The notes under the pieces: model-generated
What the model was told of the DNA's origin: nothing
Seen by the model: only the letters and a program-made list of their open reading frames with translations
Database searches by the model: none
NCBI GenBank assembly: GCA_020849095.1
Contig: JADLGX010000520.1
Span: 1-37,122, forward strand
DNA length: 37,122 nt
Reading direction: 5' to 3'
Origin: Candidatus Eiseniibacteriota bacterium
GTDB lineage: Bacteria; Eisenbacteria; RBG-16-71-46
In this document: piece after piece, positions 473 through 36,628 of the stretch
Layout: each line of letters starts with the position of its first letter
Position numbering within the stretch: position 1 is the first letter of the stretch
Position numbers and translations under genes: made by a program

Positions 473-622
473 CTAGCAAGACACAGCCCCGCCGAATCCG
501 CCGCCGTCGTCGCCGCAGTCGCCTCCGTTCGTAAGCTCGGACAATGTGCCGAGATCTCTGACCGCCGGAGGTTCATACACGGCCCGGGCGACCGGGTCGT
601 CGCTGCTCGATTCGTCCTGCAT
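473..622 (-). CDS. Lasso peptide precursor (leader plus Gly/Asp-rich core)
   Basis: A 49-residue ORF, ATG at 622 and TAG at 475-473, 26 nt after the cyclase stop. The leader contains YEPPAVRDLG (residues 16-25), which fits the lasso leader consensus Y-x2-P-x-L-x3-G with Val for Leu, followed by TLSELTNG. Thr31 is the conserved -2 Thr, so cleavage after Asn32 gives a 17-residue core GGDCGDDGGGFGGAVSC (33-49). Core position 7 is Asp, a suitable macrolactam acceptor for the Gly1 amine (7-residue ring). Cys4 and Cys17 could form a ring-tail disulfide. Ser16 is the only hydroxyl residue in the core. The adjacent RRE, peptidase, cyclase and kinase genes on the same strand support the call. The RBS is weak (AGCGGA about five bases upstream of ATG). 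Leader/core assignment is by family rules; ring size and disulfide are inference. Confidence 0.92.
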   Translation of the reverse strand: MQDESSSDDPVARAVYEPPAVRDLGTLSELTNGGDCGDDGGGFGGAVSC

Positions 623-648: not shown

Positions 649-2337
649 TCACACCGCACGTCGCTCGGCCCGTACGGTGCGCAGCGCTTGAGATATATTC
701 AAGAGCAGTGTGAGACGCAAGGCGTCACGGCTGTCGATTCGGTCCGGCGGCCGCGAACCCAGGGCCGGGGCCACGATTCTCGACAATTCCTGAGGAATCA
801 TCCGCCTCCAGCCGGTGGTGCTCGCCGGCTCCGTCCAGTTCTCCTTCGCCTCGCGAAGCAGGTGACTGTCCGGGACAAGCCCCCGGAGCGACTGACGGAG
901 TAGCTTCTTGGTTCCGGGTCCGATTCCCTCTGAGGGATGGCAATCGAAAGCCAGTTCCACGAGTTCGCGCGAAAGGAAGGGATAGACTCGGCGAACGCCC
1001 AGCGCGCTGGTGACCTCCCAGTTCTGTGCCACCGCCGTCTGAGCGGATTCGAGCCGTTTTGCAACGAACACCCGGGGGCGGGGGTCCAGTGCCAACGCGC
1101 GTCGCTGATCGCTCAGCAGGTCTCGGTACTCCGCTCGCAGCTCACTGCGAACGAACATCGGCAAGGACTCTGGCCGGTGCAGCGGAGCGCGTCCGATCCG
1201 AATGAGCGCTCGCCGGAACAGCCAGCCCAGGGCACTCCTTGGGCCGTTTGCGAGTTCTTCACGATGTCGCAGAAGGTCGGTGGGAGAAGTCGACAGGTCC
1301 CAATCTTCCTTCGTGAGTTCCGACCCAAGAAGATCGTCGCAGTACTCGCCTCCGCACAAGGCGCTGATCTCCCCAGCACGAACGACCTGTGGAAGCACAC
1401 ACAGCGCTGGGTTCGGCACCTGGAACACCTCCCGCGGCGCCCGTTCGACCTGCGCAAGGCGACCGCGAACTGAGTGCTCGAACTCCCAACTGTTTGCGAC
1501 GCTCGACTGGTAGCTCCCAACCAGCGAGCTGATTAGCCCCCGTGCGTTGGACTGAAAGGGCTCCATCGACGGAACAAACGACAAGGTCGAGAACCGTTTC
1601 CCAAGCGTTCCGGCGGCGAGTGCCAGCAGCGCAGACGAATCCACCCCCCCACTGAACGTGAGCAGTGTCCTTCCGCCGGGCTCGAACGCGGTCTCCAAGT
1701 TGCGGAGCAGGATGGTGCGGAGCTGTTTCTCGTGCGCTTCGGCCGCCTCGGCTGTGGGCCGCGAAGGCCGCGCCGTACTAGGGTCCCACCACCGCGAGCA
1801 TGACCAGCGGGCGCCGGCAGAGTGCGCGGCCTCTCCCATCGCGAGCATCTGCGTGTTTGTCAGAAACGTCCGGCGGTCCCCGAGCCAACCATGCATCGAG
1901 CAGCACGTCGCATTCACGAGTGGCTCGAGCTCGGGCTCGTCCGGCACGAAACGAGCGATCTCGCCAAGGCGCGAGGAGCAGGCTAGACGCCCCCTGGATT
2001 CCCACAAATAGATGGGGACGACCCCGGCGGCTGCACGCACCAGGTGCACCCCGCCGACGCTGTCGAAGTGGGCAAATCCGTAGTCGCCCTTCCCCGAACA
2101 CAGGAACGCTTGCCAGCCGGGTTCTCGAAGGCGTGCTTCCAGTTCCGCGTGTGCCACGTCGGGCTCGTTCTCCAGAAACACGAACTCGCCCAGTCGCGAG
2201 CGGGCCCTTCCCGAGCAGCCGACAAGCCAGGCCGAGGCTGAGCTCCCGACCCAATCGAACCGACGACTGCGCCGGAGATCTTCCTCCATGGCGCGCATTC
2301 CGCGCGGATCCGGATCGAAGTAGGCGAAGAACCTCAT
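649..2337 (-). CDS. Lasso peptide macrolactam cyclase (asparagine synthetase B-like, C protein)
   Basis: A 562-residue AsnB-family protein. The C-terminal synthetase half has the ATP-pyrophosphatase P-loop SGGVDSS (229-235) and the late motif YPFLSRELVELAF. In lasso systems this enzyme adenylates the side-chain carboxylate of core residue 7-9 and joins it to the N-terminal amine. The N-terminal glutaminase-like half begins MRFF and lacks the catalytic Cys2 of true glutamine-dependent asparagine synthetases, consistent with amide-ring formation rather than glutamine hydrolysis. The start ATG overlaps the kinase stop (ATGA), so the two are translationally coupled. The precursor gene follows 26 nt downstream. 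Given the neighbouring RRE, B2, kinase and precursor, a housekeeping asparagine synthetase or an exopolysaccharide-type AsnB is unlikely. Confidence 0.9.
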   Translation of the reverse strand: MRFFAYFDPDPRGMRAMEEDLRRSRRFDWVGSSASAWLVGCSGRARSRLGEFVFLENEPDVAHAELEARLREPGWQAFLCSGKGDYGFAHFDSVGGVHLVRAAAGVVPIYLWESRGRLACSSRLGEIARFVPDEPELEPLVNATCCSMHGWLGDRRTFLTNTQMLAMGEAAHSAGARWSCSRWWDPSTARPSRPTAEAAEAHEKQLRTILLRNLETAFEPGGRTLLTFSGGVDSSALLALAAGTLGKRFSTLSFVPSMEPFQSNARGLISSLVGSYQSSVANSWEFEHSVRGRLAQVERAPREVFQVPNPALCVLPQVVRAGEISALCGGEYCDDLLGSELTKEDWDLSTSPTDLLRHREELANGPRSALGWLFRRALIRIGRAPLHRPESLPMFVRSELRAEYRDLLSDQRRALALDPRPRVFVAKRLESAQTAVAQNWEVTSALGVRRVYPFLSRELVELAFDCHPSEGIGPGTKKLLRQSLRGLVPDSHLLREAKENWTEPASTTGWRRMIPQELSRIVAPALGSRPPDRIDSRDALRLTLLLNISQALRTVRAERRAV

Positions 2338-3236
2338 GCGTTTCGAACGGCGATGCCGACCTGTTCAGCAAGGGCAAAGTCGAAGGGCGGGGCGCGGCGG
2401 ACGTTCATCTTGTACACCGGAACGGTTCGCGCGAGTTCCGCGAGTCTTCGCGTCAGGAACTCCAAAACGCTCGGATCTCGCCAGCCCTGCACGCGGGGAT
2501 GCTTGAGCAGTTCCACAAGCGCCTCGGCACCGCGCAGGCGAACCGGGGCCGCATCCCTGTCCGAATAGCCCGGGACGATGACGGCGCGCAGCGGCAACGC
2601 TGCCAGCGTCGGAGGGGCAGGGGTCTCGAGGACGAGGCGCCCGTCGATCGACGAGCGACGCCTCCAGCTCGGCATCAGGTTCGCGACGCCGGCCGCTCCC
2701 TGCCTTATGCGAAGCCCGGTCGAACCCGGATGACAGATCGGTCCGCCTGGCGACTGCGACACACGAAGAACATCGTCGCCCACCAGCTGCAATCCAGTCG
2801 CACATGCGAGCGCAGCGAACGTCGACTTCCCCATCCCGCTCGACCCCGTGAATGCGACGACCCGACCCTGATGCTCAACGGCACTCGCGTGCAGGACCAG
2901 TTCCGCGCGCGCCAGGAGCGCGAGAGTCAACGCATTACCCGTGACGAGCAACGAGGTCAGCTCGAGGCTGGCGACCTGGGCGACCACCTCAATTCGAGTC
3001 GGGCTCACGCGGAAGTCAGCCAGCCCCGGGTAGTTCAGACGAAAGCCATCAGCAACGCGCCAGACCGAGTAGCCATCACCGTCGCCAAAACGAGCTGCGA
3101 CTTCGGTGGAGGGGAGGGCTGGCTGGTCGCTTCCCCCGAGTGTAACCGCGAGGTCCACGGTCGAGCCGACTCCCACGCCCGCGTCGAGCGGGATCTCGGA
3201 CTCGATTTCCAGACCGTGAATCCGGTAATTCCGCAT
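2334..3236 (-). CDS. HprK-like lasso peptide kinase
   Basis: A 300-residue protein related to the C-terminal kinase domain of HPr kinase. ELVLHASAV (about 112-120) precedes the Walker A loop GSSGMGKST (131-139), and an Asp-Asp pair (GDDVLRVS, about 153-160) follows. Homologues in kinase-type lasso clusters (paeninodin class) phosphorylate a Ser side chain near the precursor C-terminus; others belong to the HPr-rel-A system beside a PqqD protein and a nucleotidyltransferase. ATG 3236 was chosen because it lies 2 nt after the B2 stop and begins MRNYRIHGLEIES, whereas the longer open frame upstream is Arg/Pro-rich noise antisense to nothing useful. It overlaps the cyclase start by ATGA. The likely target is Ser48 of the precursor, the only hydroxyl residue in the core. 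Kinase fold is certain by motif; substrate is inferred. Confidence 0.88.
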   Translation of the reverse strand: MRNYRIHGLEIESEIPLDAGVGVGSTVDLAVTLGGSDQPALPSTEVAARFGDGDGYSVWRVADGFRLNYPGLADFRVSPTRIEVVAQVASLELTSLLVTGNALTLALLARAELVLHASAVEHQGRVVAFTGSSGMGKSTFAALACATGLQLVGDDVLRVSQSPGGPICHPGSTGLRIRQGAAGVANLMPSWRRRSSIDGRLVLETPAPPTLAALPLRAVIVPGYSDRDAAPVRLRGAEALVELLKHPRVQGWRDPSVLEFLTRRLAELARTVPVYKMNVRRAPPFDFALAEQVGIAVRNA

Positions 3237-3238
3237 GG

Positions 3239-3706
3239 CTACCGCAGCGCCGTGTATCCTGCGATGGTCGAGCCGCGCATTTCTGGGAGCGGCACCCCGT
3301 TGATTTCCACCCAGGCGTGGGCGGCGATTCCGCCGGGGCGCCGCGCGACGCCGATCTTGAGTCTTGGGCCGAACGCGCGGAGCAGCCCAGCAAGGACGAG
3401 TGAGCGTCGCAGGCATCGGCCACTCGGCGGCATGCGGCTGAAAATCGAGTCAACAACACGGACCACTGAATCGTGATTGGTCGCCAGGGCAGCCGCTCGC
3501 GTCTCTTGCTCCTGCCGGTCCTGCATCAGTCCAACTCCGAGGGCCCGTGCAAGGGTCGGAAGTCTCATCGTCCGCAGCCCAAGTTCTACAGCGGCGGTCA
3601 TGGCTACCGCGTGGAGTAGCGTGGACCGGTCATCGGGGCTCATTCGAGCGAATCTGCGTGCCGCGTGCGCCGCCCGGTGTGCGAAGTCACGCGCAGTCAC
3701 TCGCAT
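3239..3706 (-). CDS. Lasso peptide leader peptidase B2 (transglutaminase-like)
   Basis: A 155-residue protein with the B2 signature: Cys98 in GRCLRRSLVLAGLLR, then KIGVARR and His130 in AAHAWVEINGVPL, the Cys-His pair of transglutaminase-like cysteine proteases that cut the lasso leader after the -2 Thr residue pair. The usual third acidic residue is not obvious; Glu134 or Glu142 lie in the right area. The N-terminal half (LHAVAMTAAVELGLRTM) is the helical region normal for stand-alone B2 proteins. ATG 3706 lies inside the 3' end of the RRE gene (20-nt overlap) and the stop is 2 nt before the kinase ATG, so the four genes form one tightly coupled operon. Length matches the family. Confidence 0.92.
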   Translation of the reverse strand: MRVTARDFAHRAAHAARRFARMSPDDRSTLLHAVAMTAAVELGLRTMRLPTLARALGVGLMQDRQEQETRAAALATNHDSVVRVVDSIFSRMPPSGRCLRRSLVLAGLLRAFGPRLKIGVARRPGGIAAHAWVEINGVPLPEMRGSTIAGYTALR

Positions 3707-3977
3707 CCTCGAGCAGCCCGCGACCGGTCAGGTCCCCCAGGAGCCTCGCGTAGTCTCCTTCCACACGGTCTTGCTCGACCCCGAACTCCGTCGACACGCT
3801 CGCGCACACCTCGTCCGCGCCGAGGCCACTTCGAATCAGTTGCCACATCCTGGTCGCGGTTCGATTCAGCGCGAAGTAGTTGCCGGTTTGGAGATTCAGC
3901 AACACGGCCTCGCCGCCGACTTCCTCACTCACGACGTGAGACGGGACCTTCATGCAGGCGCGAGTTGGACGTGTCAC
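3687..3977 (-). CDS. PqqD-like RiPP recognition element (lasso B1)
   Basis: The PqqD/RRE winged-helix core is clear: GEAVLLNLQTGNYFALNRTA followed by TRMWQLI and a C-terminal helix ending GDLTGRGLLED. RREs bind the leader of the precursor (the Y-x2-P motif) and deliver it to B2. Two starts are possible. GTG 3977 has a GGAG seven bases upstream and its GTGA overlaps the stop of a 21-codon ORF, giving 96 residues. ATG 3953 gives 88 residues but has no recognisable RBS. I use 3977. It is the first gene of the lasso operon. No convincing promoter was found in 3978-4202 on this strand. Confidence 0.9.
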   Translation of the reverse strand: MTRPTRACMKVPSHVVSEEVGGEAVLLNLQTGNYFALNRTATRMWQLIRSGLGADEVCASVSTEFGVEQDRVEGDYARLLGDLTGRGLLEDASDCA

Positions 3978-4039: not shown

Positions 4040-4202
4040 TCTTTCCGATTGTGACAGCAGGCGTCGGAGGCTGGCAATCAGCCCGTGGGTGTTCGTTGCA
4101 TGGGATGCGACCGCGGTTCAGCCCGCGCGCCGAGCAAGGCTGAGAAATCGACGGCCCTGTGCCCGGCCGGGCCAACCGACTCGGCGGTCTACGGCATTCC
4201 CG

Positions 4203-4230
4203 TAGACACGCAACCCGTGCCTCGTATACT
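4203..4230 (+). promoter_or_regulatory. Sigma70-like promoter of the FG-GAP lipoprotein gene
   Basis: TAGACA at 4203-4208 (5 of 6 to TTGACA) and TATACT at 4225-4230 (5 of 6 to TATAAT), with a 16-bp spacer. Transcription would begin near 4237. A GGGAGG ribosome binding site (about 4249-4254) lies seven bases before ATG 4261. Start site is inferred. Confidence 0.6.
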
Positions 4231-4260
4231 ACCGCATCAGGGATTTTCCGGGAGGCCCGA

Positions 4261-7200
4261 ATGCGTCAACGTCTCTTCCTCTTGCTTGCGGCAGGCACTG
4301 TCGCGCTGGCTGGTTTTGCTGGTTGTGGGGACGGTGAGGAGGGTGGCAGCAGCGGCGGCGGAGGCGGCACTGGAGGCGACGGAGGCGGGCTGTGCCCGAC
4401 CGCATCGTTCACCGCACCAGCCGAGGGAGCCAAACTGGGCGCTCAGGACGACGCCGACGGCGATTGCTCCAACGGTCTCCAACTCGACGTGACGGTCGCG
4501 ACCAGCGCCGCGAGCGGGACGACTGCGGCCTTGCTCGCCGACGGACAGGAGGTCGGAACAGCGACCGCCGCAGGCGCGGTGCTCAAGTTCTCCAAGGTCA
4601 CCCTGCCGTCCAAAGCGTCAGTCGAGCTCACCGTTCGGTTCGGCGGAGCCGCTGCCTGCGACGAGGTAATTTCGGTCACGACCGACTGCGGCGCGCCGGG
4701 CTGCGAGATCGGCAAGCCAGTCCTTTCACCGACGCACCCCAAACTCAACGGAGTCCCGGTTCCCGAGGGCGGCGATCGGGCGAGCGCACCAGGCCAACAG
4801 TACCAGGTCGCTTTCGAGGTAACGACCGACGTTGATGACGGGCAGCCCGTCACACTGACGGTAGACGGAAAGGCATCGACCGCGGTCGCGCTCGCGGCGG
4901 CCGGCATTGCTTCATTTCCGGGCGTGACCTTGACTCCAGACGGAGATCACAAGGTTCAGGCGGTGTGCAAAGCCACGGGGGGCGAATCCGGGGCGAGCGC
5001 CGAAGTCACGTATCCGGTTGATACCATGGCCCCAGACCTCACCAACACCACGCCGGATGACGGCAAGTTCTTTGGCCCCACCGATGACTCAGATCCGGTG
5101 AAGAGTGGCTTGCAGTTCGAAGTCTGCGGGCAAACCACCGCCGCGGACGCGCTGGACCTCCCCGCGTCACTCGGCAGTGGTCAGAACAACTTCTGCGTCG
5201 GAATCGGAACGTCTACCCCGGTTTGCGCGCCTGCAAAGACAGCTGGCGTTGGCAGCGCAAACGGCGGCTGCGTCGACCTCGATTGTCCGGGCGGCGCGCC
5301 GTTCGACCTCACGGTCACGCTTCGCGACGACGCCGGAAACCCCACCGCCAAGACCATCAAGGGCGTTCGCTGCGCCTCGACGTTGCCGAGCGTGCAGGTG
5401 ATCGATCCGGTTGACGGAACCGGAGCCGACGTCACCAAGCACATCCTCGCAGCGTCGATGGTGCAGCCCAGAAAGGATCAGGACGCGACCAAGACGGGTT
5501 GCCAGTTCACTGTTTCGGCCTGCACTGACGTTAACGGCAAGGGCACGCTCTACGCCGGGGTTGGCACGCCGGTCGAGGTCGCGGGTCAGAAAGACATCCA
5601 GGCACAGGCCGCTTCGGCCGGCGACAACTGCCCAGCCAGCTACCCGTTCGTCATCAAGTTCGTGAATGCGGATCTCCCGGAGAGCGCCGAGACCGCGGCG
5701 AACGCCCTGCAAACGCCAACCTCCCTCTACGTCAAGGTGACGGACACCAGCACGGCGGTCGGCACGAGCCCGACGGTACAGGTTTGGGCCGACTGCACGG
5801 CGCCGACGATCACCGAGTGGACCCCCAATCCGCTGTGCGGAAAGCTGTACCAGAGCGCCAGCGACGTGACGCAGAACCTGATCCTGGGGTCCACGAACTC
5901 GCCGGTGGCGGTCACCATCACGAGCAGCGGCACACCTCAGAGTTACACCGAGCAGAGTTGGGCTCTGGGCTTCAGCAGTTTTGGCAACGTCACGTTCAAG
6001 CAGGGCACGAACGACGTCGTCGCCACTACGACGGAGCCGGTGGGCAACACCGGGGCACTCAAGTCCCCGTGCTCGGTGACGGTCGGGAACCCACCGATCG
6101 TGACGTGGACGAGCCCGACGCTGGCCACGGCGCTCAACGCAGCGACAGACGGGAACAGCGGGACCGCGGGCTGGCAAGGTACGCTCAGCGTTCAGACGAA
6201 CGTCGGCGGTTCTGGCGGCACTGTGACGTTCAAGGTGAACTGTGGCGGCACGGTAACCACGCTTGGAACGTCAAACATCGACGGCGCGGGCGTCGCCACG
6301 CTCGCCAATGCGACACTTCCGGAGTGCGCCTCCGCGACCATCACGGCAGAGACCAGCAACATCGCCGGAAAGGGCGTTGGGACCGCTTCGCTCGCGAACA
6401 AGCCGGTCGACACCGTCGTCCCGGGCGCCCCAACAGGCCTGGCCGTCGCGGTAAAGGATCGGAGGGCCACGAGCTTCACGCTCAGTTGGACCGCTCCGGC
6501 CGACAACGGGACGTCTGCAGTGGGTGGGTACCAGGTTCGCGTCTCGAAGGTCGCGATAACCGCGGGAAATTTTGATGCTGCCGAAGTTGTGGCTTTCCTG
6601 GGTGCTCCGAAGGCCCCGGGTCAGGCGGAGTCCCTCGAGGCAAACAGTCGCGTCATCGAGACCAACTACTACTTCGCCGTTGCGGCGACCGATGCGGCGG
6701 GAAACCGTGGCACCGTCGTCGCGACTGGCCCGTCGAAAGCGACTTTCAACCAGATTGTGCTGAAGTCGGGGACCACCAACGAGCAAATCGGCATCGCCAT
6801 CGACGCGTCTAGCAGCATCAACGGCGACGCGTTCACCGACCTGCTGGTGGGTGGGCGCAACGGCTACCACCTTTACATCTGGCTTGGGTCTGCGTCAGGC
6901 TACGGCGCGAACCCGGACGTCACCATAACGGGTGTCTCGGGCACTCGCTTCGGTCAGGGTGCTGCTGTCGTTGGCGACATCGATGGCGACTCGCTGCCAG
7001 ACATCGCCGTCGGGGCGCCGCTCGAAGCCGGCAAGGGAAGGGTATACATCTTCAAGGGACGTGCCACTTGGCCCGCCGCTCTGGCTCACACCCAGGCTGA
7101 CTACGTGGTCGACGTGGACGCGGCTGCTGACAGCAAGTTCACTGGGTCAGTGTTCGGGGCGATCATCACCCCGCTCGGCGACATCGATCAGGACGGCGCC

Positions 7201-8061
7201 GCTGACTTCGCTGCGAGTGCGTTCATCTATGGGGCCGGCCAAGGCTACGTCGCGATCGTGCGCGGAGTAACCTCCGGGAACGCCTTCCCGGCAACGACGA
7301 CCATCCCCGCCGCTGTGGGGACACGAGTGATCGCCGTCGTGGGCGACCCGGCCGTGCCCAAGGGCTGGTTCGGATCGCGCGTGGTTGGCCTCGGCCCCTA
7401 CTACTCTGGGAACCACCCCGCCATGGTCGTGTCCGCGCCGCCCGCGGGATTGGTCTACTCGTTCCAGGGCGACACCGGGCTGTCGGGAACGATTCTGGCG
7501 GCGAATGCCAAAGAGAAGTACACCGGCGTGGCGTCGTATCGGACCGGCCAGACTCTGTCGAATCTTGGCCCTGTCACGGCGGTCACCAGTCTCGGAGTGG
7601 GAGCGCCGGCGTCGCAGAGTTCGGCAGGCGGCGAAGCGCGGCTGTTCTACGGCAGCGCAGCGTCGCTATTTACGAATTCACCAGTTGTCATCACCAACTC
7701 CGTGGCCCAGAGCGTGGGCGACAATTTCTCCTATGCGCTGTTCGGAGGCGGCTTCTCGGGCTCGACCGTCAACGTGAGCCTCATTGGAGCCTCCGGGGTC
7801 GACGTGGGGTTCTCGTCGATCAAGCTTGCCGGGAACCCCGCCAAGCTGTACCTGGCGGAGGGCTCGAAACTCGGTGCTTCGGGGGACATTGTCAGTCTCG
7901 CTGACGTCGTCGTGGATCTTCCTGCCGACTGGGTTGGCTCGTCAGGCCAGAGCGGGCCGATCAAGGACATGAACAATGATGGCTACGCAGACATCGCACT
8001 GGGCGAACAGACCAACGGTGCGGTGAGCTCGTACGACGGCCGCGTCATCGTCCTCTGGTGA
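4261..8061 (+). CDS. Large FG-GAP / fibronectin III-type surface lipoprotein
   Basis: A 1266-residue secreted protein. Residues 1-22 are a lipoprotein signal peptide ([10 protein letters not shown]..., lipobox FAGC with Cys22) followed by a Ser/Gly-rich linker. The middle (about 40-710) is a string of Ig-like beta domains with paired Cys. A fibronectin III module starts near 715 ([11 protein letters not shown]...FTLSW). The C-terminal third (about 850-1266) is an FG-GAP/integrin-alpha-like propeller with calcium-type loops such as [32 protein letters not shown] and [17 protein letters not shown] 4261 is fixed by the GGGAGG site and the signal peptide. It is transcribed divergently from the lasso operon and stands alone between it and the polysaccharide operon. 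Likely an outer-membrane or surface adhesin/binding protein; the ligand is unknown. Confidence 0.85.
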
Positions 8062-8071
8062 GTGCCGTTCG

Positions 8072-8097
8072 AGGCCCCGGAGCCGACCCCGGGGCCT
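8072..8097 (+). terminator. Hairpin after the lipoprotein gene
   Basis: A perfect 9-bp inverted repeat, AGGCCCCGG / CCGGGGCCT with an 8-nt loop, starts 10 nt after the TGA of the lipoprotein gene. There is no downstream T-run, so it is either a weak intrinsic or a Rho-assisted terminator separating this gene from gmd. Confidence 0.5.
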
Positions 8098-8171
8098 GCC
8101 CGTTCGGCCTGCGACATCGAAGAACGCTCTCGCACATTAGGGCCTATATCGGCGTAGGCTACGACCCTGCC

Positions 8172-9200
8172 ATGCCCAAAGCGATCATCACCGGGATCAC
8201 CGGCCAAGACGGTTCTTACCTCGCGGAGCTTCTCCTTTCGAAGGGCTACGACGTCTGGGGCCTGGTTCGCCGTTCGTCGAGCTTCAACACCGCACGCATC
8301 GACCATTTGTACCAGGACCCGCATCACCGGGAAGTGAAGCTCCGGTTGGTGTACGGCGACCTCAACGACTCCACTTCACTGGCAAACGTCCTGGAAGAGG
8401 TGAAGCCCGACGAAGTTTACAACCTGGGCGCGCAGAGCCACGTACGGGTGAGCTTCGACATCCCCGAGTACACTGGCGAGATCAGCGGAATGGGGTCGGT
8501 GAGGCTTCTCGAGGCGATTCGCCGGCAGAACCTGAAGACTCGGTTTTACCAGGCGAGCTCGAGTGAGCTTTTCGGCAAGGTCCACGAGGTCCCACAGAAG
8601 GAGACCACGCCGTTCCACCCGCGGAGCCCCTACGCTGCTGCAAAGGCCTACGCCTACTACATCACGCTCAACTACCGCGAGGCGTACGGCATGTTCGCCG
8701 TCAACGGGATCCTCTTCAACCACGAGAGCCCACGCCGCGGCGAGACGTTCGTCACGCGGAAGATCACCCGCGGGGCAACGCGGATCAAGGTTGGCCTCCA
8801 GGACAAACTCTACATGGGCAACCTGGAGTCCAAGCGCGACTGGGGGTTTGCTGGCGACTACGTCGAGGGCATGTGGCGCATGTTGCAGACGCAAGAACCC
8901 GATGATTTCGTTCTTGCCACTGGGGAGACACACAGCGTGCGCGAGTTCGCCGAGAAGGTGTTTGCGTCGCTCGACTTGGACTACAAGCAGTACGTCGAGT
9001 ACGACGCCAAGTACGAGCGTCCGGCGGAAGTCGATCTGCTCTTGGGCGACTACGCCAAGGCCAAGACCAAGCTCGGATGGGAGCCGAAAGTCAGCTTCGA
9101 CGGGCTGGTGAAGATGATGGTCGATGCCGACTTGGTACTTGCGAAGGAAGAGAAGGCCCTCGCAGATCACAAGGAGCTCGTGCGACAGGGGCAGCAATGA
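8172..9200 (+). CDS. gmd: GDP-mannose 4,6-dehydratase
   Basis: A 342-residue extended SDR enzyme converting GDP-D-mannose to GDP-4-keto-6-deoxymannose. The NADP-binding loop is [34 protein letters not shown] and [12 protein letters not shown] carry the catalytic Ser/Thr-Tyr-Lys residues; [16 protein letters not shown] is the highly conserved Gmd substrate segment. ATG 8172 (MPKAIITG) was chosen by homology, as upstream in-frame sequence is not family-like. It is the first gene of the plus-strand operon. The stop overlaps the fcl start (ATGA), so the two GDP-fucose enzymes are coupled. Length and motifs match the family closely. Confidence 0.97.
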
Positions 9201-10141
9201 TCGACTGGGGACAGACCCGAGTCGTCGTCACAGGGGGTGCCGGCTTTCTCGGGCGCTTTGTCGTCGAAAAGCTTCAAGCACGCGGTGCAAAAGATGTGAT
9301 CGTGCCACGCTCGAAGGAGTTCGACCTGGTCGACGGCGACGCGGTGCGGAGGCTGCTTGCGGCGTCCAAGCCGCACCTGGTCATCCACCTCGCAGCGCGT
9401 GTCGGCGGCATCGGCGCGAATCGGGAGAACCCGGGCCGGTTCTTCTACGAGAACGCGATGATGGGCATCCAACTCTTGCACGAAAGCTGGAAGGCGGGCG
9501 TGAACAAGTTCGTCGCGTGTGGGACGATCTGCGCTTACCCGAAGTTCACGCCCGTCCCTTTTAGAGAAGAGGAAATCTGGAACGGCTATCCGGAGGAAAC
9601 GAACGCGCCGTATGGGATCGCCAAGAAAGTCATGAGCGTGCAGTCCGAAGGATACCGCGCGCAGTACGGCTTCAACTCGGTGGTCGTCTATCCGGTGAAC
9701 TTGTACGGCCCGGGCGACAACTTCGACTTGCAGGCGAGTCACGTGATTCCAGCAATGCTCCGCAAGTTCCATGAGGCGAAGTTGGCGAAGCGGGCGGAGG
9801 TGGTGCTGTGGGGCGACGGGTCACCGACCCGGGAGTTCTTCTACGTAGACGACTGCGCGGAAGGCATTGTGTTGGCTGCCGAGCGCTACGACTCGAGCGA
9901 GCCGATGAATCTCGGGTCCGGCGAGGAGATTTCCATCAAAGCGCTAGCCGAAAAGGTCCAGTCGCTGGTTGGCTACGAGGGGCATCTGGTCTGGGATCCC
10001 AGCAAGCCCAACGGGCAACCGCGGCGTCGGCTTGACGTTTCGAAGTCGCGGGCGCTTCTCGGCTTTCAGGCAGCGGTGGACCTCGATACCGGTCTTCGTC
10101 GGACCTACGATTGGATGCTGACCGACGCTTCCCAGCGATGA
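9197..10141 (+). CDS. fcl: GDP-L-fucose synthase (epimerase/reductase)
   Basis: A 314-residue SDR enzyme that completes GDP-L-fucose synthesis from the Gmd product (3,5-epimerisation and 4-reduction with NADPH). Motifs: [15 protein letters not shown] (NADP loop), [20 protein letters not shown], the catalytic Cys/Ser region [23 protein letters not shown] (Tyr-Lys), and [11 protein letters not shown] plus the C-terminal [11 protein letters not shown]. It overlaps gmd by ATGA. The GDP-fucose is probably used by the GT11-like transferase at 22498-23499 at the far end of the same operon. Confidence 0.96.
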
Positions 10142-34675: not shown

Positions 34676-36628
34676 ATGAAGCGAATAGCGCTGCGGACTT
34701 CCCAAGTCCTTGTCGATCTCGGGGTGCTCGCAACGGCGTTGCTGTTTGCGTTCGCGGCACGGTTCGACGGTCGCCTCAGCGACGACACGCTGAAGCGGTT
34801 GCTGTTTGTCATGCCCTACGTCGTGGGGTTTCAGTACTTGGTGCTGTTCGGCTTCGGGGTGCCTCGTTTCGTCTGGTCGTATACCAGCCTGCGCGAGGTT
34901 CGACAGATAGCACTGGCCCTCGGCACGAGTTCCGCCGTGCTCTTCGTTGCGCGAGTCCTCTCTCCCTACTTCTTGGACTACTCCTTTCGCGCTCGCTACG
35001 CCGCTTTGCCCATCGGTGTGATCGTCGGTGACTTCGCGCTCGCACTGCTCGGCGTTGCCGGCGTGCGCGCCTTGCGGCGAGTAGTTGGCGAGCGTGCGAA
35101 GCGAGCGGGCCTCGTGCAGCACGACACCCCACGCATCCCAACTCTCCTGGTGGGCGCCGGGCAGGCGGGCTCGCTGGTCGTCAAGGAAATCCTGTCGCGC
35201 CCTGAGCTGGGCATCGTGCCCGTGGGCTTCCTAGATGACGACGGCATGAAGCACGGCATGGCGATCCACGGTGTGAGGGTGCACGGCCTAGTGGAGTCCC
35301 TTGCCCAGCAGGCGGAGAAGCTCGGCGCCCAGCAGGTGGTGATCTCGATGGCGAGCGCGCCCGGCGACGCGGTACGTCGCGTGCTGGCCCTGGCGGAGAA
35401 AGCCCACCTTCCGGTGCGGATCATCCCCGGCATCTACGAGATCCTCGACGGCCGAGTGAATCTCTCGCGCTTGCGCGAGGTGTCGATCGAGGATTTGTTG
35501 GGTCGGGAGCCCGTGGTGCTGGATCACGCTGGCGTAGCGAGCTTCATCCGTGGGAAGCGCGTCTTGGTCACTGGAGCTGGGGGTTCGATCGGCAGCGAGC
35601 TGTGCCGCCAGATCGTAGCGTTCGAGCCAGAAAAACTGGTGCTCGTCGAGCGCAGTGAGTTTCACTTGTTCGAGATCCACGGGGAGCTGGCAGCCGCCCA
35701 CGGAGCGCGGGTCGTCCCTCGGATTGGAGACGTCTGCGATGCAGGAAGGCTGGCCTCCATTTTCGCGCGCGAACGTCCGCACGTCGTGTTTCACGCCGCG
35801 GCGCACAAGCACGTGCCCATGATGGAGTGGAACCCTGGTGAAGCCGTCAAGAACAACGTGTTCGGCACCCGCAACGTGGCTGACGCCGCCCACCGCGCTG
35901 GAGCTGACTCCTTCGTGCTGGTCAGCACAGACAAGGCTGTCAACCCGACATCGGTAATGGGAGCGACGAAGCGCGTTGGCGAAATGTACGTTCAAGCGCT
36001 GTCGCGCCGGTCATCCACGAAGTTCGTTGCGGTTCGGTTCGGCAATGTGCTCGGGTCGGCCGGGTCTGTCATCCCGACGTTCAGGAGGCAGATCGCCGCG
36101 GGTGGGCCCGTCACCGTGACTCATCCAGAGATGACGCGGTACTTCATGACGATCCCCGAGGCGTCGCAGCTGGTGATGCAGGCAGGCGCGCTGGGCAAGG
36201 GGGGCGAGATTTTCGTGCTCGATATGGGCAGCCCTGTGAAGATCGTCGATCTTGCGCGCGACATGGTCCGTCTGAGCGGGCTGGTCCCCGACGTAGATGT
36301 GAAGATCGAGTTCTCCGGCGTGCGTCCAGGCGAGAAGCTCTATGAGGAGCTGGCCTTCGACGAAGAGAAGATGGACAGGACACGCCACCCGAAGATCTTC
36401 GTGGGCCGGATCTCTCCGCGGGACCTCGACGAAGTCGCGTTCGACCTGGAAGTGCTGTCGACAGTTATGGGATCGGAGCAGGCAAAGGATGTGCGCGTCG
36501 CGCTCTCCAGGGTTGTGCCAGAAATGCGCGAGCCAGCCCGAGATCAGGACACGGCGCTTTCGTCCGAGCCAATGCCCGAGGCGACGTCTGTCAAATGCGT
36601 CGCGCGCCCGGCGATCGCGCGCGCTTGA
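34676..36628 (+). CDS. UDP-GlcNAc 4,6-dehydratase (WbpM/PglF/CapD-like)
   Basis: A 650-residue membrane-anchored enzyme. Four N-terminal hydrophobic spans lie in about 5-130 (e.g. DLGVLATALLFAFAARFDG, VMPYVVGFQYLVLFGFGV). A first Rossmann domain starts LLVGAGQAGSLVVKEI (about 157). The catalytic SDR domain has RVLVTGAGGSIGSELC (about 295) and VSTDKAVNPTSVMGATKRVGE (about 416-436), where Met replaces the SDR Tyr, the Ser-Met-Lys variant of PglF/WbpM. It makes the UDP-4-keto-6-deoxy sugar needed by the PglE-like aminotransferase. ATG 34676 has GGGGGCTGGGCG-type purines upstream and lies 12 nt after wzc-like. Confidence 0.95.
   Translation: MKRIALRTSQVLVDLGVLATALLFAFAARFDGRLSDDTLKRLLFVMPYVVGFQYLVLFGFGVPRFVWSYTSLREVRQIALALGTSSAVLFVARVLSPYFLDYSFRARYAALPIGVIVGDFALALLGVAGVRALRRVVGERAKRAGLVQHDTPRIPTLLVGAGQAGSLVVKEILSRPELGIVPVGFLDDDGMKHGMAIHGVRVHGLVESLAQQAEKLGAQQVVISMASAPGDAVRRVLALAEKAHLPVRIIPGIYEILDGRVNLSRLREVSIEDLLGREPVVLDHAGVASFIRGKRVLVTGAGGSIGSELCRQIVAFEPEKLVLVERSEFHLFEIHGELAAAHGARVVPRIGDVCDAGRLASIFARERPHVVFHAAAHKHVPMMEWNPGEAVKNNVFGTRNVADAAHRAGADSFVLVSTDKAVNPTSVMGATKRVGEMYVQALSRRSSTKFVAVRFGNVLGSAGSVIPTFRRQIAAGGPVTVTHPEMTRYFMTIPEASQLVMQAGALGKGGEIFVLDMGSPVKIVDLARDMVRLSGLVPDVDVKIEFSGVRPGEKLYEELAFDEEKMDRTRHPKIFVGRISPRDLDEVAFDLEVLSTVMGSEQAKDVRVALSRVVPEMREPARDQDTALSSEPMPEATSVKCVARPAIARA

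Follow-up and report, generated by a model that had tools for sequence, protein, structure and literature searches.

The window (the whole stretch of 37,122 nucleotides analysed, contig G000:C522 of its bin) carries near one end five genes on the minus strand in the order B1-B2-K-C-A, with A the last (Table 1). The strand of the first four genes and their order ahead of the small final ORF, already reported in the initial annotation, are confirmed here by profile matches. B1 and B2 overlap by 20 bp, B2 and K are separated by 2 bp, K and C overlap by 4 bp, and C and A meet as GTGA if a GTG start is used for A; junctions that overlap or are 2 bp apart make a single transcript likely. No terminator was found downstream of gene A, and the contig ends 472 bases beyond its stop, within a nucleotide-sugar-dehydrogenase-like ORF. 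Of the larger ORFs on the contig, whose translations were read by eye in a non-systematic way, none was recognised as encoding a transporter.

Table 1. Coordinates of the lasso-type operon in the window, of neighbouring ORFs, and of the loci with which it is compared.
Locus	Feature	Position	Strand	Evidence or description
Window	B1, PqqD-type RiPP recognition element, ATG start	3687..3953	-	PF05402, E 9e-15
Window	B2, leader peptidase, transglutaminase-like	3239..3706	-	NF033537, 61.5 bits (cut-off 33); PF13471 over cut-off
Window	K, HPr-kinase-like protein	2334..3236	-	HprK-related models, E about 2e-7, below full-length cut-offs
Window	C, macrolactam cyclase, Asn-synthase type	649..2337	-	PF00733, 37.3 bits (cut-off 21); SGGVDSS motif
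Window	A, putative lasso precursor, 49 aa, ATG start	473..622	-	NF033521, 28.1 bits (cut-off 19)
Window	Leader of A, 32 aa, ...YEPPAVRDLGTLSELTN	527..622	-	Tyr-17, Pro-14, Val-12, Gly-8, Thr-2
Window	Core of A, GGDCGDDGGGFGGAVSC, 17 residues	476..526	-	Predicted Gly1-Asp7 ring and Cys4-Cys17 pair
Window	Large ORF	4159-8061	+	Reads as secreted lipoprotein with FG-GAP-like repeats
Window	Polysaccharide protein	34676-36628
L030	Candidate precursor, 36 aa	5356-5463	-	After C; cluster K-B1-B2-C
L030	C	5537-7744	-
L029	Candidate precursor	8091-8288	-
L029	C	8257-9972	-
L029	K (frame)	7123-8079	-
L029	B1	6486-6767	+
L029	B2	6680-7240	+
L013	Candidate precursor	3000-3188	+	Cyanobacterial (Komarekiella) lasso-type locus

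Gene A is translated as the leader MQDESSSDDPVARAVYEPPAVRDLGTLSELTN followed by the core GGDCGDDGGGFGGAVSC, and is closed by a TAG codon (473-475). This bears out the ORF described in the initial annotation, with its 49 residues, its YEPPAVRDLG motif, the threonine at -2 and a 17-residue core containing eight glycines and three aspartates. Its labelling there as unannotated is a supposition. The accompanying remark that the gene is too short for common gene-finding cut-offs is doubtful, because its 150 nt lie above the usual minimum gene length in callers such as Prodigal. It is equally possible that translation begins at a GTG at 652, 10 codons upstream, giving a protein of 59 residues (473-652). 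The overlap of this GTG with the cyclase stop (GTGA) makes translational coupling of C and A possible. The GC content by codon position in gene A (0.68/0.54/0.76) matches that of the cyclase (0.67/0.53/0.74). A leader-plus-core pattern, drafted after the ORF had been seen, occurs once in the window and in none of 60 windows simulated with its dinucleotide composition.

The enzymes encoded upstream include all those expected of a lasso cluster, namely B1 (PF05402), B2 (NF033537/PF13471) and an Asn-synthase-type cyclase over the PF00733 cut-off. B1 might also start at a GTG at 3977; its closest solved protein is TbiB1 (5v1u; E 1.1e-13). Cys98 and His130 of B2 are conserved in the B2 proteins of two other lasso loci. 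The cyclase diverges from the lasso cyclase models, giving only E 0.0013 with NF033535 and E 8e-16, below the cut-off, with TIGR01536. K carries a Walker A sequence GSSGMGKST followed by VGDD, and can be aligned with the kinases of two other lasso loci. An AlphaFold model of K built from three sequences matches the PEPCK/HPrK fold, and these matches are suggestive only, since the model is poor (mean pLDDT 54).

The leader residues listed in Table 1 occupy the canonical lasso register, and both the YxxPx[L/V]...G motif and the threonine at -2 that characterize lasso precursors are present. The initial annotation had called for a search with a lasso-leader HMM. The NCBI curated model NF033521 (lasso_leader_L3, cut-off 19 bits) matches the 49-residue precursor at 28.1 bits (E=1.4e-6) and the 59-residue form at 27.6 bits. 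In a six-frame scan of the 4.48-Mb assembly that includes the window the precursor is the sole match over the cut-off (E=1.5e-5), the runner-up stretch reaching 10.5 bits, and the model has no match over its cut-off in any of 14 control genomes.

The canonical register of the leader places the start of the core at Gly1. With Asp7 the sole acid at positions 7-9, a 7-residue Gly1-Asp7 ring is predicted, and the pairing of a small first residue, usually Gly, with an Asp or Glu at 7-9 is that of lasso cores in general. Given this ring, Cys4 would lie within it and Cys17 in the tail, the arrangement of one ring and one tail cysteine that defines class III. Phe11 is the single bulky residue, so a stable thread would depend on a disulfide or on the small ring. 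The core ends Ser16-Cys17, and Ser16 is its only serine, threonine or tyrosine. The computed [M+H]+ is 1410.4685 for the lasso with a disulfide, and 1490.4348 if it is phosphorylated as well.

How general is this operon among related bacteria? It is absent from four genomes of the window's genus, and of 47 phylum genomes only 3, that of the window (G000) included, have a B2 over the cut-off. The other two, G001 (locus L030) and G042 (locus L029), are of the same class, and in both a gene for an HPr-kinase-like protein accompanies B1, B2 and C, with different cores. In G001 A again follows C in a cluster with a kinase, and the candidate precursor (...WERPELKVTPIEETL-AGLGPDDDGGGGLMS) has a Gly/Asp-rich core like that of the window, a C-terminal serine and a threonine at -2, with a leader that is off the canonical register. 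The candidate in G042 (...YSKPKVEEAGSVFSRTK-AVGVSPDDLLTTGSSL, with ...FSRTK before the core) has Tyr(-17), Pro(-14), Val(-12), Gly(-8) and Thr(-2), and its core ends Ser-Leu; a nucleotidyltransferase-like gene neighbours that cluster. Neither candidate is matched by NF033521 at E 0.01, and both are therefore proposals. Conservation of the leader, put forward in the initial annotation as a check on the ORF, thus holds for the motif at the level of the family (NF033521) and in the characterized lasso peptide 9401-LP1, and for the register in G042, but the register is absent in G001. The kinase of G001 matches that of the window over the P-loop half, and BLASTP gives no significant match between the two cyclases. 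The operons are not close orthologues, and lasso clusters look sporadic in the class. When the precursor was used to query the 47 phylum genomes only its own match was significant, and the core itself has no homologue that we could find.

Searches were extended to other sequence collections. Neither the cyclase nor B2 has a tblastn match among plasmids; the kinase has one partial match, to an archaeal plasmid, and the cyclase has none among viral contigs. Against genome contigs B2 identifies two cyanobacterial loci with B1/B2, one of which has a Gly/His-rich candidate core; no kinase was seen within the stretches of these loci that were read. The candidate precursor of the Komarekiella locus has an extremely His/Arg/Gly-rich C-terminal part (RRDHRHHRRRRRHGGGHGGHGGHGG). 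A second B2-like match within the window's own bin, in G000:C28 (35% over 92 aa, E 1e-3), lies below the thresholds of the B2 models and was dropped.

The contig sits oddly in its bin, and may be misbinned or a foreign island. Its GC content is about 65% vs about 70% in the bin, and its tetranucleotide profile correlates with those of sampled bin contigs at 0.42-0.47, where most bin contigs correlate mutually at 0.6-0.8. This signal is noisy, because segments of the window correlate poorly even among themselves (0.34-0.37). The polysaccharide protein listed in Table 1 has 46% identity to its best same-genus match, no better than to another copy within its own bin; class-level matches, at 42-43%, come close to the same-genus figure. 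The myxobacterial host suggested in the initial annotation is a guess. Two further contigs of the bin with Asn-synthase-family genes, G000:C234 and G000:C553 (L055, L056), are also compositional outliers with a GC content of about 64%, and are perhaps further misbinned or mobile islands. The translations of its larger ORFs make the rest of the contig read as an extracellular-polysaccharide cluster; this biosynthetic cluster comes after the large ORF at 4159-8061, which is divergent from the lasso operon.

Comparison with characterized systems places the operon among lasso clusters of a familiar kind. The nearest is 9401-LP1, a type III lasso peptide of Streptomyces sp. ADI94-01 that has been produced and characterized, its disulfide demonstrated by mass spectrometry (PMC5974421). 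Its precursor is 42% identical to that of the window over 36 aa (E 6e-8 for the pair), with a near-identical leader VYEPPALEEIGGFAELTM (YEPPALEEIG...ELT) in identical register, a core of similar length (18 vs 17 residues) and a cysteine in the N-terminal region together with one at the C-terminus (Cys5/Cys18 vs Cys4/Cys17). It differs in having Ala1 and an aromatic core, and its cluster is described as A-D only, and so without a kinase. BI-32169, a class III peptide of 19 residues, likewise pairs ring Cys6 with C-terminal Cys19, but has a 9-residue ring and is rich in proline and tryptophan (PMC12427821). A 7-residue Gly1-Asp7 ring like that predicted here is named for huascopeptin in a title cited in PMC12427821, and xanthomonins I-III have a 7-residue macrolactam ring; both are reported as class II, without a disulfide.

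Kinases are known from other clusters. As in the window, an HPr-kinase homologue adjoins the lasso genes in the paeninodin (PadeK) and pseudomycoidin (PsmK) clusters, but those enzymes act on a C-terminal serine, where the window core has a cysteine preceded by serine. The BsfA/BsfK system of Bradymonas sediminis (PMC10368454) resembles the window in being Gram-negative, with B1, B2, a kinase and a core that does not end in serine; it differs in its Ser3 target and Ile(-2), where the window has Asp3 and Thr(-2). BGC 482.1 of a soil metagenome (Acidobacteria; PMC9064862) resembles the window in having a kinase gene and A after C, its A genes likewise having come to light by manual annotation; its kinase is annotated as of the aminoglycoside-phosphotransferase family, it has two A genes, and its -2 residue is predicted to be Leu or Ser.

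From its sequence and context, 473-622 is very probably a lasso precursor gene, the last of a B1-B2-K-C-A operon. We found no other reading that fits the leader match, the register, Thr(-2), Asp7 and the position after B1-B2-K-C, and the lasso interpretation is supported. Against it stand the poor scores of the cyclase on lasso models, a core with no homologue found and a single bulky residue, and the penultimate position of the serine. By analogy with known systems, B1 would bind the YxxPxV...G leader, B2 would cut after Thr-Asn, and C would activate Asp7 and join it to the Gly1 amine, giving a 7-residue macrolactam with the tail threaded through it. Cys4 in the ring and Cys17, the last residue, would then form a disulfide locking the tail, giving a class III lasso. 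The HPr-kinase-like protein would phosphorylate Ser16 on the linear precursor, aided by B1. This type of system is well known; what is unusual is a very glycine-rich predicted product that combines two cysteines and a small ring with a dedicated kinase.

PadeK-type kinases act on a C-terminal serine, which is strongly conserved wherever a cluster includes such a kinase, and BsfK phosphorylates core Ser3 (PMC10368454). The initial annotation does not remark that the window core lacks a final serine despite the kinase. The window has the HPr-kinase homologue of the paeninodin type without the C-terminal serine, and it lacks the BsfK-type combination of Ser/Thr at core position 3 with Ile/Val at -2. 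Since Ser16 is the only hydroxyl-bearing residue of the core, a kinase acting on a core hydroxyl must use it, and because those lasso kinases that we found with a known site use the C-terminal serine or Ser3, this site would be new. We give phosphorylation of Ser16 on the linear precursor, with the help of B1, roughly an even chance. It is a little short of evenly likely that the kinase leaves the core unmodified, acting on the leader, on another target, or lying idle; both established sites are absent from the core, and several serines and threonines make a site in the leader conceivable. Against an unmodified core, the kinase gene is flanked by B2 and C at overlapping junctions, Ser16 lies a single residue short of the usual site, and the candidate precursor of G042 likewise has a penultimate serine beside a kinase.

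The Cys4-Cys17 disulfide of a class III lasso is reasonably probable. It is rather unlikely that the product is instead of class II, with its cysteines reduced or otherwise used and the thread held by the 7-residue ring and Phe11/Val15 alone. There is precedent in the xanthomonins, whose 7-residue rings reportedly hold with small plugs, and albusnodin, which has one cysteine, at the C-terminus, is counted as class II. A ring cysteine with a C-terminal cysteine is nevertheless the exact pairing of BI-32169 and 9401-LP1. We know of no tailoring of BI-32169.

Other readings fare much worse. If the core began at the preceding asparagine (NGGDCGDD...), an Asn1-Asp8 ring of eight residues would result, and metanodin does use Asn1 in its ring (PMC12670498); this start would put Leu at -2 and move Tyr to -16 and Pro to -13, outside the canonical register, so that we reject it as highly improbable. 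The combination of B1, B2 and C with an L3 leader is specific to lasso peptides, and a graspetide or another RiPP class is rejected on this ground. That the ORF arises by chance, the true precursor lying elsewhere or beyond the nearby contig end, might be argued from the absence of the core in relatives, but it is scarcely credible and is rejected in view of the match to the curated leader model, found nowhere else in the genome, the exact register, the coding-like composition and the position.

With this precursor a poorly sampled lineage yields a concrete lasso cluster that lends itself to expression, and the gene is a further case of a small RiPP precursor gene spotted in the gap after a cyclase. 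Ring closure at Asp7, the class III disulfide and the phosphorylation of Ser16 are predictions open to testing rather than findings, and we regard the full combination, a disulfide-locked class III lasso with a Gly1-Asp7 ring, almost no bulky plugs and a phosphorylated Ser16, as a tentative and on balance unlikely outcome. We found no class III lasso with a kinase in the openly readable literature, a weak negative. If the combination is true, this would be, within the searchable literature, the first lasso of class III, with its disulfide, to be tailored by a kinase, and its phosphosite would be the first that is neither a C-terminal serine nor Ser3. The core offers a probe of site selection by lasso kinases on a peptide that ends in a residue other than serine, and of the minimum ring size and number of bulky residues in a disulfide-locked lasso.
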